From a virus, in IMG/VR virus record IMGVR_UViG_3300003690_000118, positions 1 to 25,825 of that record: DNA of 25,825 nucleotides; one strand, written 5' to 3'. Positions 150 through 13,003 of this stretch are shown here, piece after piece (the stretch's first letter is position 1; the number at the start of each line of letters is the position of its first letter). The notes under the pieces are model-generated. The model saw nothing but the letters and a program-made list of their open reading frames with translations, had not been told where the DNA came from and did no database searches. Both the position numbers and the translations under genes were made by a program.

Positions 150-668
150 TTAAACTTTACCACCGGCTTTGTAGCCAATCATTATTTTACCACCACGTTT
201 ACGAGAGACAGAACTACCACGTTTACGTTTTACACTTCCACCACGTTTACGTTTTACACTTCCACCCTTTTTTATACTTTGTGCAACTATTTTTAATGCT
301 GAATCTTTTGATCCAGAAGATAGATCCCTTGGTCTATTTTTTCTAAGTATATCTCCCGGTTTTAGTTGTGGAGTTACTCCTAAATATTCTTGGGCATATT
401 CTCGTTTAAATCTTGGATCTTCTCTTTTTCCTTTTAATAATCCTCTTTTATATAATAACTCATTTATACTCTTAAGTTTACTATGTATATATTTTTGACG
501 TTCTTTTTTTGTAGGTAATTTGCTAGCTTCTTTTTCAACTTGTTTTACCATTACTTGATGCTCAACATCTCCTAAATCTTCAGCAGCTATTCGACCCCAA
601 GATTTATCATAATCAGACTTTCTACCAAGAATTTGATCAGGATGAATTTTTTTTGAACGACCAGCCAT
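150..668 (-). CDS. Basic protein with shared C-terminal GGK tag (tag protein 1)
   Basis: A 172-residue, Lys/Arg-rich protein of unknown function. The first 120 residues look helical and charged. The last 40 are a low-complexity tail made of repeated GG-S-V-K-R-K-R units followed by the ending RKRGGKIMIGYKAGGKV, which is nearly identical in the next four genes upstream. The start is ATG at 668 with GGAGATTA upstream; the stop codon of the preceding gene overlaps that ribosome-binding site. The strongly basic composition and position after the capsid gene suggest a protein that contacts DNA or is carried inside the head; this is inference. Two exact 24-base units in the tail (217-264) show recent local duplication. 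Confidence 0.8.
   Translation of the reverse strand: MAGRSKKIHPDQILGRKSDYDKSWGRIAAEDLGDVEHQVMVKQVEKEASKLPTKKERQKYIHSKLKSINELLYKRGLLKGKREDPRFKREYAQEYLGVTPQLKPGDILRKNRPRDLSSGSKDSALKIVAQSIKKGGSVKRKRGGSVKRKRGSSVSRKRGGKIMIGYKAGGKV
217..264 (-). repeat. Two exact tandem 24-bp repeats inside tag protein 1
   Basis: Bases 217-240 and 241-264 are identical. They encode two copies of an 8-residue GGSVKRKR-type unit just before the shared C-terminal tag. Exact identity of neighbouring copies indicates a recent slippage or unequal recombination event that changed the length of the basic tail in frame. Confidence 0.85.
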
Positions 669-679
669 AGTTAATCTCC

Positions 680-889
680 TTAAACTTTACCACCAGCTTT
701 GTAGCCTTGTATTATTTTACCACCACGTTTACGAGATACTAATCCACCTTTACGTTTTTTCTTACCAATATTTTTCATAGCTTTTAAACTTTGATCTATA
801 GATTCCTGAGCTTTTTTAGCTTCAGGAGTTTCTAGTACTTCTAATTGTTTCTGTAATTTCTTAAGAAATTTACTTAAAGTTTCAGCCAT
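680..889 (-). CDS. Small basic protein with shared C-terminal GGK tag (tag protein 2)
   Basis: A 69-residue protein, the shortest of the five tagged proteins. Residues 2-45 form a predicted amphipathic helix rich in Lys, Glu, Leu and Gln (SKFLKKLQKQLEVLE near the start); the remainder is the basic tail with LVSRKRGGKIIQGYKAGGKV at the end. The start is ATG at 889 with GGAGATTA upstream that overlaps the stop codon of the preceding gene, so translation is probably coupled. With almost nothing but one helix plus the tag, it shows that the tag is separable from the variable N-terminal part. Function unknown; a head-associated or DNA-binding role is suggested only by charge and position. Confidence 0.8.
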   Translation of the reverse strand: MAETLSKFLKKLQKQLEVLETPEAKKAQESIDQSLKAMKNIGKKKRKGGLVSRKRGGKIIQGYKAGGKV

Positions 890-900
890 ACTTAATCTCC

Positions 901-1581
901 TTATACTTTACCACCAGCTTTATAGCCTTGCATTATCTTACCACCAGATCTACGAGATACTGTTCCACCTTTACGATTTTTACCAGTTATACTTTTTCTA
1001 ATAATACCATATGGGTCCATATGCTCTTTACCAGTACGATCTGTTGCTGTTCTAGCTTCCTTACGGGCCTTTGCTCCTTGAGCTTTACCTCGTTTTATAG
1101 CTTCTTTATAAGTAGTATCACCCATCACTCCTTGTAGTGCTAATGCACCTCGTGCTATCTTTCCACGAAGACCACCAGTTTCTGATATTGTTTTGGCAAT
1201 ACGACTATATTTTTCACCACGTTTTACATCTTTTGTAACACCCTTTTCAACATCTGCTATTTTCTGAGCAGATCTACGACCTTTCATTCGTTTAACATCT
1301 TTAGGAGTTACTCCCATTGCAGGACTTTTCTTTCGTGGCATTCGTATTCGTTTAACATCTTTAGAAGTTACTCCCATTGCAGGAGTTCGTTTACGTCTAC
1401 GAGCAGAAGCCTTCACATCTTTTTTAGTTGCTCCAATACCTCCACCAGTTTTACGAGATATAGTTCCACCACTACGTTTTCCTTTACGAAGTTCTTTTAG
1501 CAGATGTTCCATCTCTGGTAATGAAGGTACTTTCCCGGGACTTAATTTTTTCATCCTTCCAAGTAGTTGTAGATTCTTCAA
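901..1581 (-). CDS. Basic repeat protein with shared C-terminal GGK tag (tag protein 3), start disrupted by frame problem
   Basis: The open frame ends with RRSGGKIMQGYKAGGKV and carries four copies of a GVTxKDVKR motif between residues about 45 and 125, two of them in an almost exact 60-bp tandem repeat. An inner GGTISRKTGGG copy of the tag-like motif lies near residue 40. The frame can begin at TTG 1581 or ATG 1554, neither with a well-spaced ribosome-binding site. The conserved GGAGATTAG site and ATG used by every neighbour sit at 1615 but in another frame, which joins this one if a single base is removed near the A6 run at about 1548-1553. The true protein is therefore probably about 237 residues from 1615, with a frameshift, sequencing error, or decayed start. 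Confidence 0.7.
   Translation of the reverse strand: MKNLQLLGRMKKLSPGKVPSLPEMEHLLKELRKGKRSGGTISRKTGGGIGATKKDVKASARRRKRTPAMGVTSKDVKRIRMPRKKSPAMGVTPKDVKRMKGRRSAQKIADVEKGVTKDVKRGEKYSRIAKTISETGGLRGKIARGALALQGVMGDTTYKEAIKRGKAQGAKARKEARTATDRTGKEHMDPYGIIRKSITGKNRKGGTVSRRSGGKIMQGYKAGGKV
1288..1384 (-). repeat. Near-exact 60-bp tandem repeat inside tag protein 3
   Basis: Bases 1288-1324 and 1348-1384 match with one difference over 37 bases, at a period of exactly 60 bases (20 codons). They encode two consecutive PAMGVTxKDVKR units, and further diverged KDVK units flank them on both sides. In-frame repeat expansion matches the behaviour of the 24-bp repeats in tag protein 1. Confidence 0.8.
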
Positions 1582-1615
1582 TCTCTTTTACTGGCTTTTT
1601 AGAACTAGTTCTCAT
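1484..1615 (-). pseudogene. 43-codon frame at the conserved start of tag protein 3, out of frame with its body
   Basis: ATG at 1615-1613 has the same upstream GGAGATTAGAT as the other tag genes and opens a frame beginning MRTSSKKPVKEIEE that stops at 1486-1484. The body of tag protein 3 continues one base out of phase. Dropping one A from the A6 run near 1548-1553 would read straight from this start through WKDEKLSPGK into the body. I read this as the detached N-terminus of tag protein 3 rather than as a separate gene. Alternatives are a real short upstream frame or a programmed frameshift. Confidence 0.55.
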
Positions 1616-1626
1616 ATCTAATCTCC

Positions 1627-2136
1627 CTAAACTTTACCACCGGCTTTATAGCCTTGCATTATTTTACCACCAGCTTTACGTTTAACAGTTCCACCACGTT
1701 TTCTACTTGGTGTTTCTCCCTTTCTGGGTAAGTACATTCCTTTTTGACCACTAGGAGCTTTTACAGGTTTAGCTGCTTTTGTAGCTTCTCCTATACTTTT
1801 TTCAAGATTTGCTAAACTTTGACCTGCTGCTTTTCGTTGCTTTGGAGTTAAGTTCCACCATGCTCTCTTTTGTTTACTTGCATAATCTGTACCTGCTCTT
1901 ATATGCTCACCATGTACTTTTTGTATATCCTTTTTTTTAGCAGCAGCTTTCCGAGTAGCTTCTCTAGTACTAGCTAGATGTTCTTTTCTCTTTTGAGCAT
2001 AAGGTTTTTTTGGTTTAACTATACTTCCCCATCCTTCTTTTACTGCTTTATCAGCCTGTTTTTTAGTAAGATGTTGAATACCTTTTCCCATAATTCTTAC
2101 TGCTATTAACCCTGCTGGTATTAATGGAAGTCCCAT
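1627..2136 (-). CDS. Basic protein with shared C-terminal GGK tag (tag protein 4)
   Basis: A 169-residue Lys/Arg/Ala-rich protein. It begins with a short hydrophobic stretch (GLPLIPAGLIAVRIMG) followed by a highly charged helical region with Lys and Arg runs (residues 40-85), a WWNLTPKQRKAAG segment near residue 100, and then the shared basic tail KRGGTVKRKAGGKIMQGYKAGGKV split over residues 146-169. The start is ATG at 2136 with GGAGATTA upstream overlapping the preceding stop codon. The hydrophobic N-terminus is peculiar to this member and could insert in a membrane or pack against another virion protein. No family recognised; a head-associated role is inferred from the neighbourhood. Confidence 0.8.
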   Translation of the reverse strand: MGLPLIPAGLIAVRIMGKGIQHLTKKQADKAVKEGWGSIVKPKKPYAQKRKEHLASTREATRKAAAKKKDIQKVHGEHIRAGTDYASKQKRAWWNLTPKQRKAAGQSLANLEKSIGEATKAAKPVKAPSGQKGMYLPRKGETPSRKRGGTVKRKAGGKIMQGYKAGGKV

Positions 2137-2147
2137 ATCTAATCTCC

Positions 2148-2582
2148 TTATACTTTACCACCGGCCTTATAACCTTGCATAATCTTTCCACCAGTTTTAC
2201 GAGAGACAGTACTACCCTTCTTACGACGTACAGAACCACCCTTCTTTGCCATAGTTCTGGCACCAGAATAAGCTCCACGACCAAGAGCACGTTCCTCACC
2301 TTCACTCTCAGCAGCACGACGGGCAAGATTTCCTCTAACAGTAGGATGACGAGCAGCTAAAGATTCACGAAGTCGAGCACCATAACCCTGTGTAAGACCA
2401 CCAGCATGTTTCTTTGCAGTGCCACCAGCTTTACGTTTAATAGTTCCACCTTTTCTATTTGTAGTATGTTTCTTTCCACCTGCTATATCTTTAAGAGCCT
2501 TATCTGATAGATCTTCTGCCCAAGCAGTACCTTTCACTTTTAAAGTTTTTGCAGCTGCTTTTGCTAATTTTCGTCCACTCAT
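2148..2582 (-). CDS. Basic protein with shared C-terminal GGK tag (tag protein 5)
   Basis: A 144-residue basic protein, the first of the tagged series after the capsid gene. It starts at ATG 2582 behind GGAGATTAG. Residues 1-30 look helical, residues 38-70 contain two extra GG-T-x-K-R-K-A/H type repeats of the tag motif, the middle (75-110) is Arg-rich, and the protein ends in VSRKTGGKIMQGYKAGGKV. The internal motif copies show that the tag has multiplied within as well as between genes. The capsid gene lies 68 bases upstream with a hairpin between, so this group may be expressed at a level different from the capsid protein. Function unknown. Confidence 0.8.
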   Translation of the reverse strand: MSGRKLAKAAAKTLKVKGTAWAEDLSDKALKDIAGGKKHTTNRKGGTIKRKAGGTAKKHAGGLTQGYGARLRESLAARHPTVRGNLARRAAESEGEERALGRGAYSGARTMAKKGGSVRRKKGSTVSRKTGGKIMQGYKAGGKV

Positions 2583-2650: not shown

Positions 2651-3550
2651 TTAGCTTCCTTGATTCCCATACCAGCCTCTCCAATCGGAGACACCAAAGC
2701 TGTAACGCTCTCGTGCCTTAAATCGAAGGTTGCCAGTATCAAAATCTGGCTCCATCTTTGTCTGAAGTGGAGTACGTGTAAACATCTTTGTACCATTAGG
2801 AACATCGGTCTTTACAAACCAATCATCCGTTCCAGTGAACCGTCGATTGACATAGAATCCATTCGGAATCATGCCCATATGACGGGTAGCATTGATATCA
2901 TTATTAGCACTGGCCGGAAGACCGGGAGTGTTCAGAATGGTATCAGCAGTATTCCATAAATCAACAGGAATATGCAAAGATGTGGCACTTGCTCCTACGA
3001 GGATACCACGGTCATCCTTAATCTTTTGGACTTGTGTGATTGCACTCTCAAGAGTTCCGATAGCTAACGCACCGGCAGTTGCTGTATTAGTCTGAGTACC
3101 GTCAGAAATGGTTGGATGAGTAGAAGCAAAAAATGCAACACCATCCCCAATCGTATCGGTAAAGCCATTGGTAAACAGATTGGCAGCTTTGACCTCTTTA
3201 GTATTTGCCATTGCACGGGCCAAACCTCTGGCACGTAACTTAGCAAACGTATCATAAAGATTGTCTTCCATTGCTTCTTCTGTAATTGCAAAGGCTAGAG
3301 CAACAGTCTCTGCCGTGTAACGGGCAGTGTAACTCTCTTGTGCATCGTCGTAGGAAACAGCAGCCCCTTCAGATTTAACTGGAGCCGTACCGAAACCTGT
3401 AAACAGAACTTCTTCTTCAAAGGCCCGATCAGAGTTTTCGACTTCATAAAGTGATTTATGTTCGTCGTTAACCTGACCATATTCCAGCCCGAAAACAGCA
3501 TTTAAGCCGGGAAGAAGTTCTTTGGCAATACTCGCTCGATTAATAGTCAT
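2651..3550 (-). CDS. Major capsid protein
   Basis: A 299-residue protein that should form the icosahedral shell. The sequence resembles capsid proteins of the Mu gpT-like type within the HK97-fold group: an N-terminal helix region (MTINRASIAKELLPGLNAVF), a charged segment matching the E-loop position, a long helical stretch AFAITEEAMEDNLYD with ARGLARAMANTKEVKAANLF (residues about 85-125) typical of the spine helix, then FxASTHPT, and a C-terminal beta-rich part ending in SFGVSDWRGWYGNQGS. Length fits the family. It follows the scaffold gene by two genes, as expected. Start is ATG 3550 behind AGGAAGGAG. Family assignment is from memory of sequence patterns, but the role is well supported by context. 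Confidence 0.85.
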   Translation of the reverse strand: MTINRASIAKELLPGLNAVFGLEYGQVNDEHKSLYEVENSDRAFEEEVLFTGFGTAPVKSEGAAVSYDDAQESYTARYTAETVALAFAITEEAMEDNLYDTFAKLRARGLARAMANTKEVKAANLFTNGFTDTIGDGVAFFASTHPTISDGTQTNTATAGALAIGTLESAITQVQKIKDDRGILVGASATSLHIPVDLWNTADTILNTPGLPASANNDINATRHMGMIPNGFYVNRRFTGTDDWFVKTDVPNGTKMFTRTPLQTKMEPDFDTGNLRFKARERYSFGVSDWRGWYGNQGS

Positions 3551-3568: not shown

Positions 3569-4186
3569 TTATGCTGTTGATACTGTAGTGGTTGCAAACC
3601 GATCCCTGTGTGTGGGTAACCAAACTTCAAGCATTGGATATTGGTCAAGTCCGTCTGTACCTTCATTCGGATCTTGCATTCGTCCAATAACTCGTACATT
3701 ACCTACAATAGTTTCTACACCAGCAGCGGATGTTTCTACAAAGAATGCAGATTGACCTGTTTTAGTACTACCGGCAGAGGCCGTCGAAACGGTTGCCGTA
3801 TAGTTAAGAACTTTACAGATCTCACCATTACTGCATGTTGCATTACCTTGAATGTAATACGTCTGATCAGGATCAGTTATGACATGGAACTGAATACATG
3901 TTGCAGCAGAAATAGCCTCTCCCGGCCAATACCGTGAGAACTTTTGACTACCATCAGTGTCAACATAATTACAACCCATAAATACACCCGAAGGCTTCAG
4001 AGTTGCAGTTATACTTTCAGCAATGGTGCCACCTGCATCAATAAGTATTAAGTCACCAGTATACAGTTTCTTAGGAGCACGAGTTATAGTCGTGGGGGAA
4101 ATTAAAGTAGTTGACCCACCAGTATTATAATTCATACCCTTTTTCCGAGCAGGAAGGAAGCCACGTAACGCTCGTGTACTTGACAT
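3569..4186 (-). CDS. Putative head decoration or capsid-associated protein
   Basis: A 205-residue protein with low charge and much Thr, Ser, Gly and Ala, and the alternating pattern expected for beta structure (for example TLISPTTITRAPKKLYTGDLI near residues 27-48 and GNATCSNGEICKVLN near 118-132). No motif identifies it. It lies directly upstream of the major capsid gene and downstream of the scaffold in the same operon, the usual place for decoration or head-stabilising proteins. It has three Cys residues in the middle. Start is ATG 4186 behind GGAGAATTAT. The function is inferred from position and composition only. Confidence 0.55.
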   Translation of the reverse strand: MSSTRALRGFLPARKKGMNYNTGGSTTLISPTTITRAPKKLYTGDLILIDAGGTIAESITATLKPSGVFMGCNYVDTDGSQKFSRYWPGEAISAATCIQFHVITDPDQTYYIQGNATCSNGEICKVLNYTATVSTASAGSTKTGQSAFFVETSAAGVETIVGNVRVIGRMQDPNEGTDGLDQYPMLEVWLPTHRDRFATTTVSTA

Positions 4187-5753: not shown

Positions 5754-6176
5754 TTATGATCCAGATGTCAAATTAAATGTAGGATCTAGATCTTTTGGAT
5801 GTTCCACTCTACATATTACCTGATCATCAAATAACAATATTAATCGTACCGATTTATAGAATAATTTCTGACCAGCATGTTTAGCATAACAAACAAAGTC
5901 TCCTTCTCTACACCATGTTCCATTGGGGAATTTTACCTCGTCCTGATAAGCTAAATCTCCAATTGATATAACCTTTCCTACTGTGGTAAGATAGGCCATA
6001 TCATCTCTGGTAGAATCTGGAAGTACAATACCTCCCTTTGTTACACCCTTTATACTTACTGGTCTTACCAGAATATGATATCCCGGTAACTCTGGTAAAG
6101 GACTCGGATCTTTGATCTCGTCCTCTGTAATCCACATATCATTCTTCATTGCTTTTCCTAGTTGTACTTGTTGCAT
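5754..6176 (-). CDS. GroES-like co-chaperonin (Cpn10)
   Basis: A 140-residue homologue of GroES, the lid of the GroEL folding chamber. Residues 32-120 match the Cpn10 fold: PGYHILVRPV at the start of the barrel, the mobile loop with GVTKGGIVLPDS (the hydrophobic IVL triplet that binds GroEL at 50-52), VGKVISIGDLAY, and a closing KLFYKSVRLILLFDDQVICRV. It is longer than bacterial GroES (about 95 residues) because of a 30-residue N-terminal extension and a short C-terminal tail. Lying directly before scaffold and capsid genes, it probably adapts host GroEL for capsid folding, as T4 gp31 does. Start ATG 6176 immediately follows the preceding stop. Confidence 0.85.
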   Translation of the reverse strand: MQQVQLGKAMKNDMWITEDEIKDPSPLPELPGYHILVRPVSIKGVTKGGIVLPDSTRDDMAYLTTVGKVISIGDLAYQDEVKFPNGTWCREGDFVCYAKHAGQKLFYKSVRLILLFDDQVICRVEHPKDLDPTFNLTSGS

Positions 6177-6809: not shown

Positions 6810-7191
6810 TGTTATCTCCTTGTTTATTTGATAGTTGCATCTGTGTCATTAATTCAGCTAATTTAATATCTTTTTCTTTTTCGATATCAGCGGCCTTTTC
6901 AAGCATTCGTCCTTTTAAATTCTTTTCAGCTATTTGTGTTTTTTGTTCTTCCACTGACAACTTAGCTAATACTTCAAGTGATTTTAATGTTTCTTTACTT
7001 ACTCTATCAAGTTCAGACTTTTCTTTTTTCATAAGAGCAGATTGCCCTTCAGCAGCCGCTTCCTTGAGAAGCTTAACCTGTTCTAATTTCAGTTTCTGTG
7101 CATCCAAGGCAGCTTCTGCTGTATTACTGGCAGCATCCAATTGTAATTTCTGCTGTTGAAGTTCAACCTTTTTCTGTTCAAGAATTTGCAT
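6802..7191 (-). CDS. Coiled-coil protein downstream of portal
   Basis: A 129-residue protein composed almost wholly of Lys, Glu, Gln, Leu and Ala with heptad spacing over residues 1-115 (LEQKKVELQQQKLQLDAASN near the start), predicted to be one long coiled coil. It ends in a short polar tail. Its start lies 14 bases inside the end of the portal gene and its end overlaps the next start, so it is translationally coupled on both sides. In phages a coiled-coil protein directly after portal may be an assembly helper or an internal head or neck component; sequence alone does not tell. Confidence 0.65.
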   Translation of the reverse strand: MQILEQKKVELQQQKLQLDAASNTAEAALDAQKLKLEQVKLLKEAAAEGQSALMKKEKSELDRVSKETLKSLEVLAKLSVEEQKTQIAEKNLKGRMLEKAADIEKEKDIKLAELMTQMQLSNKQGDNNA

Positions 7192-9298
7192 TCAGTACCT
7201 GTTGTGCAGCTTCGGCCATTATTGCTTCTGCAATCTGTGGATTCTGTGGTCCAACTTGCTCCATCCCTGTTTTTGTAAGTCCATTAATTTGTTCCTGATA
7301 TTTTAGAATCATATGTTCCTGAACATTTGCTTCCAGTACAGGTTTAATTCTTTGCATAATCGGATTTGCTCCATTTAAAGGATCTTGAAGAAATGCCATC
7401 TTAACCTGAACATGAGCATCATGATTCTGACCGGGGAAAGCTCCAATAGGCATTCCTTTTGTTGCAGCCATTATATCCGATACAGGATCAAGAGGTTGTG
7501 GTTTTTGTTTTGGTGGAAGTATCTCTTCCAAATTAGGCATGTTTGCTGCATTAAGAATGGTTCTACTCAATGCTTCTAAATTAAACATGCCGGGAGGAGA
7601 TTGCTGGGCCATTTGCATAGCCATTTGTGCAATCATAAGACGGTGAGCATTGGATGGAATATTTGGATCACTGACGGGAATCACGTCCACTCTTCCATCA
7701 AAATCGGATTTATAGATGCTCCGACTTTCGTATGGCACATCATACGGATATTCACTTGGGAGATAATCATAGTCGATTCTTGCCAAAATCCTAAATTCAT
7801 CTCTTTGAGATTTATGTAATCTCTTATGAATTGCAGAGAAGAATTTACTGGAGGCTTCCAGTAGTGCCATCGTTGTACCTACAGGACCATAAGAAGATGC
7901 TTCCGATACCATTGATTCTGTACTGTCGGCAAACTTCTGTCCTGCCTGAGTTATAAAACCCAACATCTGGAACAAGGTTTGAGAAGGCTCTTTATAAGGA
8001 AGAGGAACGATAGCCTTTGCCAAGTCCATGCCTGTAGATTCAACTTCTTTAAACTCACCGGGGCTAATAGGATCATTGTCTCCAACCATCCTGACACCTT
8101 TTGCCTTAAATCCTCCCGGCAGATTTGCAAATTGACCTGCATCAATGAGACTTCTCATTGCTGCTGTTGCACTCATAGTTAGATTTCCTAGGAAGTGCAT
8201 CAGGCCAAGACCGTAGAAACCAAACCCCGGTACGAATCTATAATGGACAAAGTGACTTATCTTTTCTTTATTCGGATCATCAGGTTTATAGTTTCTACGG
8301 ATACATAAAACATTTTTGGATTGTTCTTCTATTGTTACAATATAGGGAAGTGCAATTCCCTCTTCTGCATTAGGTTCGTCTATCTCTAAATAACAATGCT
8401 GTTCCAATAGAACATATTGTGGATCAGTATCCTGTGTTGGAGAGAACCCTAATATTGTATCCATCTTGGATGCAAATGCAGTGGGTTGTGGATTTGTTGC
8501 CGTTGGTAATTCCGTATTGGCATATATACCAGAACGAATATCTTTTGCCAGATCAATCGGACTACGATAAATTACATGAGTATACCTATCAGCTTTACGT
8601 AAGTTGCTGGCATAGTAAGATACATAAAATTGATCAATAGGTACAAATTCTGCTACAGGTCGTTTCAGATTTGCATCGTAATATAATTTCTTGAATGCAG
8701 AACCTATCAATGGTAGATGAAAGAGCATCTTTTCAAATTCGTCAAAGTACTCTGGCATCTGCTCCGTAAGCTGATAGTTCATAAAGTTCTTGACACGGTT
8801 GGCTTGCATCTCACGTTCCTGTGTAGACTTACCAAGTATCTGTGTCTTTACCGGACCTGCTGATGGGAAAAGTTCCTGTGATGCTTTACTCTGGAATTTA
8901 ACTGCTGATTCTACCAGAAGGGGATGGACTGCACTACATGCACCTTCAAATGGTTCGGATGATTCCTGTATCTTTAATCCAAGTAAATCGAATCCACGTT
9001 CAAACATGGACTCCCATTCCTGTCGGGAGTTCTTATCTGCATCATAACTATTATATACAGTTGAAGATATCTCCCCTAATGTTTCATCATCCAATGCTTC
9101 AGCTAAATTAACATACCATTCTTTTACAGGAGCTTCTGCTTCCATTACAACCGTACTGGCAAAATCAACTATTACACCACCATCAGGCTCTACTTCAAAT
9201 GTTGCTTCCCGTTCCTCATCTACTGGAACAGGATTCATTGGGACTACATTTGTAATTTCCTGTGGTATTTGTTCAAATGGATTTCGTTCTGTTGCCAT
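7178..9298 (-). CDS. Portal protein (head-tail connector)
   Basis: A 706-residue protein following the terminase gene, with the size and sequence character of the large portal proteins of P22-like and related podoviral phages; it would form the dodecameric DNA gate at one capsid vertex. Recognisable segments are SSEPFEGACSAVHPLLVESA (about 105-125) and KFQSKASQELFPSAGPVKTQ right after it, the stretch FEKMLFHLPLIGSAFKKLYYD (about 190-210), VPIDQFYVSY near residue 222, and FGFYGLGLMHFLGNL near residue 360. A Gln/Met-rich helical C-terminal region resembles a portal barrel. Start is ATG 9298 with GGGAAAA upstream, and a promoter lies at 9339-9367. The assignment is from pattern and gene order. 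Confidence 0.8.
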   Translation of the reverse strand: MATERNPFEQIPQEITNVVPMNPVPVDEEREATFEVEPDGGVIVDFASTVVMEAEAPVKEWYVNLAEALDDETLGEISSTVYNSYDADKNSRQEWESMFERGFDLLGLKIQESSEPFEGACSAVHPLLVESAVKFQSKASQELFPSAGPVKTQILGKSTQEREMQANRVKNFMNYQLTEQMPEYFDEFEKMLFHLPLIGSAFKKLYYDANLKRPVAEFVPIDQFYVSYYASNLRKADRYTHVIYRSPIDLAKDIRSGIYANTELPTATNPQPTAFASKMDTILGFSPTQDTDPQYVLLEQHCYLEIDEPNAEEGIALPYIVTIEEQSKNVLCIRRNYKPDDPNKEKISHFVHYRFVPGFGFYGLGLMHFLGNLTMSATAAMRSLIDAGQFANLPGGFKAKGVRMVGDNDPISPGEFKEVESTGMDLAKAIVPLPYKEPSQTLFQMLGFITQAGQKFADSTESMVSEASSYGPVGTTMALLEASSKFFSAIHKRLHKSQRDEFRILARIDYDYLPSEYPYDVPYESRSIYKSDFDGRVDVIPVSDPNIPSNAHRLMIAQMAMQMAQQSPPGMFNLEALSRTILNAANMPNLEEILPPKQKPQPLDPVSDIMAATKGMPIGAFPGQNHDAHVQVKMAFLQDPLNGANPIMQRIKPVLEANVQEHMILKYQEQINGLTKTGMEQVGPQNPQIAEAIMAEAAQQVLNANS

Positions 9299-9338: not shown

Positions 9339-9367
9339 ATTATACACCTAAGATCTCCAGTATGCAA
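9339..9367 (-). promoter_or_regulatory. Minus-strand sigma70-type promoter before portal
   Basis: On the minus strand TTGCAT (9367-9362) and TATAAT (9344-9339) are separated by 17 bases; the -35 element lies within the last codons of the terminase gene. Transcription would start near 9332, leaving a ~34-base leader before the portal ATG. The hexamers are identical to those before scaffold (5722-5750). Confidence 0.65.
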
Positions 9368-10889
9368 CCCTTTTTGTTTTACGTTTTTCATCTTCCCATT
9401 CTGGATCTTCAGGATGTGTGATATGCCATGACTCTCTCATGTAATGTACGGCCATAGTAAGAGCATCTACCTGATCATCATGAGCTGCATTGGGAAACTG
9501 TAATAGTTCCTCTACGAGTTCATCCGTCCACTTCTTATATTTAGGTATCCATACTCTTCCCGATTCAATTAATGGAGAAGCAGCATATACTCTGCTGACT
9601 TTATCTCTGTCAGGTAAGTATTCTCTTACGGGTAACCCACCTCTTCTCATATCCTGTATAAGAGACTGTCCACTGGCCTTTTTTTCTATGATACATATAT
9701 CTGGTCTAAACCGACGAAAGAGTAATTGTGACATCCTACGTAATTCGGGATATTCAAACCTTCCTCGTATATTACCTAGGAGTATCAGATTGGAAACTAT
9801 ACTTTCAATTCCATATTCATCTTCATGTGGTAAGGAAAAGATGCCCCATGTCTGTATAACACTAAAATCAGCCGTGGTATTTGTGGAGAATGCCGTATCA
9901 TATGTTTGTAATATAAAATCACATGTGGGTGGGTCTTCATATTCCCACCATCTTAGCCATTTCTTCTTGATCAGCCCTCCCTCTTCTGGAGTAGGATTCT
10001 GCATATACAATGCATTCCAGTATCGTGCTCCATTTGAGGCTTTTATTTCATTCTCATCAATCTGTAGTATATGCTTTGGCTTCCATTCGGGGAAATAGGA
10101 GCTACCTACTGGTAAATCCAGTAATTCTGCTGCTTCAGCATCCAACCATGCAGGAATACGTATTACCTCCCACGGAATAACCTCATATTGACTCATATCT
10201 TCCTGTTGTTTCAGGAGCCAGCCACATAAATCATCATAATGGTAACGAGTATTAATGATAAGTATGGCTCCATTGGGCATAATACGAGTTCTTAACCCGG
10301 CAGGATACCATTCCTTTACATATCTACGTCCAGCTTCCGAATATGAGTCCTCTTCAGACATCACATCGTCCAATATGGCTATATGTGCCCCTCTTCCTGC
10401 AATCTGGCTACGGACTCCGGCTGCATAGTACGTGCCATTCTGTGTTGTCTTCCACTTTCCTGCCGCTCGTACGTCCGTTCGGAGTGAAACACCCTTAAAT
10501 ATCTCCTGAAACTGTTCAGCGTTAACAATGTCACGAACAGAACGGCCAAAATCACTAGAAAGTTGATCACTGTGAGAAACAGTAAGAATTTCATGCTCTG
10601 GATTTCTCCCTATATACCATGCTGGAAACAATTTAGAACAGAGAACAGACTTGGAACTACGTGGTGGGAGAAAGACCATTAGTCTTTTTATCTCACCAGA
10701 TTCCAATTGACTTAATTTGTTTGAAATTAGCTCAATGTGTTGTCCCATTTTCCAATCGGAAACAAGAGTAGGAGCCATTAGACGAACAAACGTGAGAAAA
10801 TCAGTTTTCGTTTCTTGGAGTACGTTTAGTCTAAGTAGACTATTCAGGTTTATAAAGGGATTTAGTATATTTTCTTGTTCTAATTCCAT
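9348..10889 (-). CDS. terL: Terminase large subunit (DNA packaging ATPase-nuclease)
   Basis: A 513-residue protein that should drive DNA into the prohead and cut the concatemer. The ATPase half has a Walker A of the form LPPRSSKS (residues 74-81), a Walker B AILDDV with Asp174 and Asp175, and a coupling-type motif INTRYH near 212-217. The nuclease half shows the three acidic sites: Asp331 in QTYDTAFS, Glu402 in IIEKKASGQS and Asp471/472 in HDDQVDALTMA. Length is typical. ATG 10889 follows AAGGAT and a T-rich leader; a minus-strand promoter lies at 10984-11012. No small terminase subunit is recognisable next to it. Confidence 0.93.
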   Translation of the reverse strand: MELEQENILNPFINLNSLLRLNVLQETKTDFLTFVRLMAPTLVSDWKMGQHIELISNKLSQLESGEIKRLMVFLPPRSSKSVLCSKLFPAWYIGRNPEHEILTVSHSDQLSSDFGRSVRDIVNAEQFQEIFKGVSLRTDVRAAGKWKTTQNGTYYAAGVRSQIAGRGAHIAILDDVMSEEDSYSEAGRRYVKEWYPAGLRTRIMPNGAILIINTRYHYDDLCGWLLKQQEDMSQYEVIPWEVIRIPAWLDAEAAELLDLPVGSSYFPEWKPKHILQIDENEIKASNGARYWNALYMQNPTPEEGGLIKKKWLRWWEYEDPPTCDFILQTYDTAFSTNTTADFSVIQTWGIFSLPHEDEYGIESIVSNLILLGNIRGRFEYPELRRMSQLLFRRFRPDICIIEKKASGQSLIQDMRRGGLPVREYLPDRDKVSRVYAASPLIESGRVWIPKYKKWTDELVEELLQFPNAAHDDQVDALTMAVHYMRESWHITHPEDPEWEDEKRKTKRVAYWRS

Positions 10890-12630: not shown

Positions 12631-12936
12631 ATGGCCTCTTATGGTGATGGTCTTATCCACATTACAAATGTAGATATGTGGAAAGATAAGCTTCGAATAA
12701 CTGTACTCGATACTGTTGAGGAGTCAGAGATGTGTATCTTAATGACTCATGATAAAGCTCATGAGTTAGCGATTGATCTCATGAACTTTGCAATGGGATT
12801 AATTACAAAGGAGTTGATAAATAAAATCAATAGTCTCCCATTGGAAGATAAAATTAATAATATCTCGATATCTAATCAAAAGGATATCGAAAATGACTCT
12901 AAAATTGTATTTATCGATTCCTTTAGAAAGGGGTGA
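12631..12936 (+). CDS. Unknown 101-residue protein whose stop overlaps tRNA-Trp
   Basis: ATG 12631 is preferred over an upstream in-frame TTG because of GGAAAGG upstream. The protein has a beta-like first half (GDGLIHITNVDMWKDKLRIT), a helix DKAHELAIDLMNFAMGLITK, and a polar, Asn/Ser/Lys-rich end. No family recognised. Its stop codon TGA (12934-12936) is also bases 6-8 of the tRNA gene, so processing of the tRNA from a joint transcript would cut this mRNA at its stop. Confidence 0.65.
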   Translation: MASYGDGLIHITNVDMWKDKLRITVLDTVEESEMCILMTHDKAHELAIDLMNFAMGLITKELINKINSLPLEDKINNISISNQKDIENDSKIVFIDSFRKG

Positions 12937-13003
12937 AGTGTTAATGGCTGCACATCAGACTCCAAATCTGAGAGATAAGGTTCGATCCCTTACACCCCTG
13001 CCA
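12929..13003 (+). tRNA. tRNA-Trp (anticodon CCA)
   Basis: All four arms can be drawn over 75 bases. The acceptor stem is AGGGGTG (12929-12935) with CACCCCT, 7 perfect pairs, then G73 and an encoded CCA (13001-13003). The D stem is GTGT/GCAC with one G-U pair. The anticodon stem TCAGA/TCTGA encloses the loop CTCCAAA, so the anticodon is CCA and reads UGG. The T arm is TAAGG/CCTTA around TTCGATC. Pair A1-U72 and discriminator G73 are the known recognition features of bacterial tRNA-Trp. Base 8 is A rather than the usual U. A phage tRNA-Trp supplements the host for UGG-rich phage genes; it is not a suppressor. Confidence 0.92.

Follow-up and report, generated by a model that had tools for sequence, protein, structure and literature searches.

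The window, i.e. the whole stretch of DNA analysed here, is a 25.8-kb IMG/VR fragment from a tailed phage with its head module on the minus strand. This module comprises genes for terminase, an SU10-like portal protein, GroES, an acidic scaffold candidate, two conserved head-module proteins and the major capsid protein (MCP). As the preliminary description had stated, the MCP gene is directly followed by five consecutive genes with a common C-terminal tail (tagged genes), after which a cement-like gene begins at the contig end (Table 1). The gene order agrees with that of the HTVC023P/SU10-portal phage group: terminase, SU10-like portal, GroES, scaffold candidate, MCP, cement and SU10-like adaptor, where the order of cement and adaptor is taken from close relatives and the window itself stops inside the cement gene. 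The names cement and scaffold are based on position and on annotation in relatives. The cement-like gene occupies a place comparable to that of the 'cement protein' annotated in phage DSL-LC04, and the scaffold candidate (phrog_28737, unknown function) has an acidic N-terminus with a net charge of -12 over 60 residues. For the 205-aa head-module protein, neither a PHROG nor a Pfam match above the cut-off was obtained. In the plus-strand, replication-side region, tRNA-Trp (CCA) is located at 12929-13003.

The MCP is 49-52% identical to those of HTVC023P, DSL-LC04 and Pag-Yong1. Across the cultured pelagiphages HTVC023P/027P, roseophages CRP-901/902, DSL-LC04, Pag-Yong1/MinM2 and an Alcaligenes phage, identity ranges from 41 to 52%, and it drops to 32% in Caulobacter phages. 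The MCP has partial matches to Mu-like head/protease profiles. A search of the window head genes with Pfam and PHROGs profiles yielded no dedicated prohead protease family, so a T4-type removal of the tag may be lacking. Solved structures useful for the MCP or the tailed proteins were not found.

Table 1. Head module and tagged genes of the window
Feature	Position	Strand	Basis and remarks
Cement-like (head decoration) gene, start only, cut by contig end	1..133	-	MASNLTVAMATVGSG; closes the tagged slot
Tagged protein 1, 172 aa	150..668	-	Helical payload, disordered GGSVKRKR linker, tail GGKIMIGYKAGGKV
Tagged protein 2, 69 aa	680..889	-	Tail GGKIIQGYKAGGKV; singleton payload family
Tagged protein 3, 217 aa from ATG 1554	901..1554	-	Frame broken upstream; tail GGKIMQGYKAGGKV
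Tagged protein 4, 169 aa	1627..2136	-	Tail GGKIMQGYKAGGKV; relatives in L034 (after adaptor gene) and L228
Tagged protein 5, 144 aa	2148..2582	-	Modular body DARLxESLAARHP, ESEGxERALGR; tail GGKIMQGYKAGGKV
Major capsid protein (MCP)	2651..3550	-	Phage_capsid_4 PF25209 7.8e-15; phrog_371 3.5e-20
Conserved head-module protein, 205 aa, function unknown	3569..4186	-	Conserved in relatives
Conserved head-module protein, 164 aa	4214..4708	-	phrog_36003, unknown function
Putative scaffolding protein, 315 aa	4724..5671	-	Inferred from location between GroES and MCP and from charge
GroES-like co-chaperonin	5754..6176	-	PF00166 5.3e-7; phrog_3188
Portal protein, SU10-like	7178..9298	-	PF23899 2.4e-10; phrog_1216
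Terminase large subunit	9348..10889	-	PF17289; phrog_38 6.6e-108

All five tagged proteins end in GGKI(M/I)xGYKAGGKV. A degenerate 27-mer for GYKAGGKV plus stop matches the window five times and none of 100 shuffled versions. High-scoring 14-mer pairs among the five proteins are exclusively C-terminal (10, compared with 0 N-terminal and 0 internal). The tail had been called near-constant, which holds with two reservations: Protein 2 carries KIIQ instead of KIMQ, and the residue preceding GYK can be Q, I, V, Y or H. The Ile in this copy also rules out that translation begins internally, at the otherwise conserved Met of the KIM unit. None of the five proteins has an informative Pfam or PHROGs match. 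Protein 1 has orthologues with 86-95% identity in L030 and L038; in the latter, the linker has shrunk while the tail is intact. Protein 5 belongs to F0, the commonest payload family at this site, and has no relative among cultured phages. The third gene (901-1581 frame) is broken: A ribosome-binding site and an ATG like those of its neighbours are present at 1615 in another frame, and this ATG opens a 43-aa frame, MRTSSKK (1484-1615, minus), out of frame with protein 3. Its relatives in L238 and L247 start with MRTSSK and run in a single frame through to the tail.

To trace the tail in 2.9 million viral contigs, a DNA pattern for the 12-mer KIMxGYKAGGKV was scanned with and without a following stop codon. 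Both scans returned the same 41 stretches with 79 copies, as full listings of the strict pattern, which misses the GGRV and GGSV variants present in relatives. In all 79 copies the tail directly precedes the stop; it is never internal. None of 84,980 prokaryotic genomes contains the 12-mer. To control for composition, the octapeptide was also scanned in reverse (VKGGAKYG); this had no match in the viral collection compared with at least 118 stretches for forward GYKAGGKV, and a general low-complexity GK-rich tail is thereby ruled out for the strict tail. The bare octapeptide also sits in GK-rich repeats in other phages. In other phage families it is often internal or penultimate: 69 of 154 occurrences among the matches listed are exactly C-terminal, 2 are near the C-terminus and 83 are internal. 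A literature search of open-access papers for GYKAGGKV found nothing.

Among distinct tails, GYKAGG is invariant in 47 of 47. Tails of paralogues within one genome differ at near-saturated synonymous sites (pS 0.51) while their residues are kept (pN 0.05), the mark of purifying selection. This near-saturation rules out that the tail was conserved as DNA or homogenised by recent gene conversion. Since all copies precede a stop and synonymous sites have diverged while residues were retained, the tail is, as far as sequence comparison can tell, an old, protein-level and strictly terminal signal. The junctions between the genes are stereotyped, too: The tail is followed by a stop codon overlapping a GGAG ribosome-binding site, 11 bp and an ATG, with the sequence GTAAAGT(T/A)TAAGGAGATTA before the ATG and about 11 bp between genes. 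This near-identical layout would fit a DNA element in which 3' end, Shine-Dalgarno sequence and ATG are maintained as a cassette for recombination or translational coupling and the peptide is a by-product. Such an element is already disfavoured and highly improbable, as synonymous positions vary freely under held residues and tagged genes also occur singly, outside arrays.

When the 56 distinct tagged proteins are grouped by their N-terminal parts, 29 families result that are unrelated to each other (E 1e-4). The description of the proteins as unrelated is thus correct for their bodies; the linker KxGGxVxRKxGG is, however, also common to them. In some cases, the body is pieced together from short modules that recur. 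Searches with 31 payload representatives against Pfam, PHROGs and PADLOC gave nothing informative beyond isolated matches, i.e. phrog_20603 in one member (3e-16) and PADLOC JetB in another (5e-4). AlphaFold2 models, built on shallow alignments of three sequences each, predict helices at residues 23-74 of protein 1 and disorder in its last 80 residues (90-172, pLDDT <50); the mean pLDDT of this model is 50. Protein 4, with a mean of 72, is predicted to have an ordered body (10-120, pLDDT about 77-92) and a disordered end (141-169, the last 29 residues, <50). A fold search with the one reasonably modelled body gave no fold match; the best E values were 0.2 in viral structures and 2.6 in the PDB.

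Basic character, too, had been attributed to the proteins, and this is mostly a property of linker and tail. The last 25 residues have a net charge of about +3 to +13 in all members. The payload bodies range from -9 to +32 and are neutral or acidic in 14 of 56, and one whole protein is net negative; hence, 'unrelated basic proteins' is only partly right. For the same reason, the proposal of DNA-binding cargo is not supported for many members, and an early idea that every tagged protein binds DNA was dropped after the charge count. The charge also bears on the possibility that these are small DNA-condensing head proteins whose tail is itself a DNA- or polyanion-binding element and not a targeting signal. 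The KxGGxVxRKxGGKI repeats and the uniformly basic ends would be expected of such nucleoproteins. DNA binding by charge, however, needs neither an invariant GYKAGG above near-saturated synonymous sites nor an exclusively C-terminal position, and a quarter of the payloads lack the charge. We regard this explanation as quite unlikely.

The interval between MCP and cement gene is a hypervariable slot. The window and relatives whose MCP is 89-97% identical together have 14 distinct intervals of this kind, each with one to five genes, and 17 payload families are represented in them (genes in relatives were called with a simple script). Tagged genes leave no more than about 80-110 bp uncovered in 13 of the 14; the window deviates, its broken third gene having been counted short. 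Where MCP identity is around 75-80%, most relatives have a gene-free interval of about 60-80 bp. A second site of tagged genes lies after the adaptor gene. L034/G001, with more divergent cement and adaptor, has four tagged genes only at this site, one of them related to protein 4 of the window. G001 and G002 are near-complete genomes, and in both the tagged proteins and other strongly basic proteins with tails are encoded in clusters by the MCP and adaptor genes. The slot is flanked by the MCP gene and a cement-like gene, and decoration proteins tend to be dispensable and confined to particular lineages. Both would suit a display on the capsid surface, with the tail docking payloads outside the MCP/cement lattice in the manner of Hoc or Soc. 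By contrast, the strongly basic linker and tail are more typical of interior proteins beside DNA, and tagged genes after the adaptor gene lie away from the cement gene. Surface display is therefore rather unlikely.

The tail does not occur mainly away from head genes. A head-module homologue is present at 79 of 85 octapeptide loci without the strict tail, a sample found by sequence alone and comprising the matches listed. Where such loci include the MCP gene, the motif lies on the same strand downstream of it in 38 of 41 cases among the matches listed. Alternatively, the tagged proteins could be late host-directed or assembly-assisting proteins outside the virion, with a tail that addresses a cellular partner of host or phage, e.g. 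a chaperonin or a protease adaptor. The phage has its own GroES gene, and the small variable payloads look like host-takeover genes. Nevertheless, the octapeptide keeps to the head module even in distant relatives among the matches listed, so the module rather than the host seems to be the shared factor, and no occurrence of the strict tail was found in the 84,980 prokaryotic genomes. A role outside the virion is accordingly judged unlikely.

The same phages contain further C-terminal tails on differing proteins, mostly beside the adaptor gene: GxxxVxxxYD, RGxGxAxRGxGxA and GHNRLY. All classes except GYKAGGKV were drawn by eye and then profile-counted on the same loci and are therefore exploratory. 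Tails are exchanged between bodies. A 172-aa protein encoded after the adaptor gene in L062 ends in GYKAGGKV, and related bodies in L020, L123 and L008 end in GSK(Y/L)VAKLYD; more generally, some bodies carry the GYKAGGKV tail in one phage and GSKYVAKLYD or RGxGxAxRG in a relative. The nearest cultured proteins with comparable tails are HTVC023P gp32, which ends in RGVGAAIRGHKFIGVK, and Pag-Yong1 UMO75986, which ends in RDGCAKRGRTKGRFI.

Several further observations concern these tails. GxxxVxxxYD is found right after the adaptor gene on very different bodies in relatives with 75-80% MCP identity (L131, L138, L147, L148, L152 and others), sometimes in pairs, as in two consecutive genes of L148. 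RGxGxAxRGxGxA is widespread on proteins of 77-668 aa (L184, L192, L194, L195, L197, L203 and others), and a similar C-terminal motif is present in gp32 of the cultured pelagiphage HTVC023P, encoded just after the portal gene. In L048, L054, L068, L078 and L108, runs of small lysine-rich proteins lie between cement and adaptor; several end in (V/T)R(I/V/T)(F/Y), and those of L078 show weak likeness to DUF5754 and DUF5872. GGxIERNPYxYxxRAI or close variants, another possible shared tail, end proteins near portal or tail genes (G001 32082-33322, i.e. L212; G002 43944-44555; L175), one of which has an HExxH metallopeptidase-like motif. The N-terminal module SxAQHxMMxAVANNPKFAKKxGIPQSVG of a small tailed protein in L010 (332-769) recurs in phiKZ gp165.1 and in PHROGs that carry the annotation virion structural protein.

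It is conceivable, though at present doubtful, that this large phage group uses interchangeable, clade-specific C-terminal virion tags, each with a cognate reader in head or connector, which would let one virion sort several cargo classes while payload modules move between tags. The set would include GYKAGGKV, GxxxVxxxYD, RGxGxAxRGxGxA and GHNRLY, and possibly TRIF and ERNPYxYxxRAI.

For GYKAGGKV itself, a sorting or loading signal, as the preliminary description had proposed, is the best-supported reading because the strict tail is never internal and the octapeptide loci keep the head module. With a probability of roughly 0.56, the tail serves as an address tag at the C-terminus by which small late proteins, specific to the clade and rapidly exchanged, are loaded into the virion while the head is assembled. 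In each of them, a flexible linker rich in GG, K and R connects the variable payload, in many cases a small helical domain or several short modules in a row, to the constant KIMxGYKAGGKV. This tail would be bound by a single conserved component of the head that is present at prohead assembly; the likeliest receptors are the MCP/cement lattice and the acidic scaffold candidate. The latter is one possible receptor because the tail is basic and the scaffold N-terminus acidic. Loading by a shared receptor predicts what is observed: The head operon encodes many small, rapidly exchanged proteins that are unrelated to each other and yet have the same terminal signal. From this we infer presence in the virion and, with respect to location, an interior one. 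The payloads may travel within the head and, like the T4 internal proteins, be set free or injected upon infection; their turnover would be accounted for in this way. It counts against loading that a late gene linked to the head module does not necessarily encode a virion protein.

If loading is confirmed, uncultured marine phages have a C-terminal counterpart to the T4 capsid-targeting sequence (CTS). This would provide a simple sequence rule by which virion cargo hidden among the hundreds of small basic phage proteins labelled 'hypothetical' could be recognised; such cargo possibly includes proteins that are injected to counter defence or to take over the host. The tail could also be used as a short fusion tag that brings proteins into phage heads. 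With a near-constant tag and payload turnover, proteins co-injected with DNA would become directly testable outside the T4 model.

The T4 internal proteins have no mutual homology save an N-terminal packaging leader and are encoded in a diversified hotspot; three Ip proteins block different GmrSD nucleases after injection (PMC12373910, PMC3012670). As with the CTS of Ip1-Ip3 and their T-even relatives, a short constant signal is found here on unrelated small late proteins, several per genome, in a variable gene set (29 families among 56 proteins, 17 of them in 14 intervals). In contrast to T4, the signal is C-terminal (no N-terminal 14-mer pair against 10 C-terminal ones), differs in sequence and belongs to a slot next to the MCP gene; neither a dedicated prohead protease nor a processing site was seen in this system. 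In phage P1, a short N-terminal segment of DarB suffices to send a reporter into the capsid (PMC9024508). Unlike the tail studied here, this signal is N-terminal and was described for one large protein, not for a family of differing carriers (PMC9024508). Giant phage SPN3US packages an ejection-protein bolus, many internal head proteins besides the genome; it differs from the window phage in being a giant phage with a prohead protease, and the abstract mentions no common C-terminal tail (PMC5694885). Encapsulin cargo-loading peptides are short, conserved, mostly C-terminal and located on unrelated cargo encoded beside an HK97-fold shell gene (PMC7355545). The tagged proteins resemble such cargo in layout: A short conserved C-terminal peptide marks diverse proteins encoded next to a shell gene. 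Unlike in encapsulins, the shell is a phage MCP accompanied by SU10-like portal, terminase, adaptor and scaffold candidate. By analogy, the tail, which is not a T4 CTS because terminus and sequence differ and not an encapsulin cargo peptide because the shell is that of a phage with portal and terminase, may work like both.
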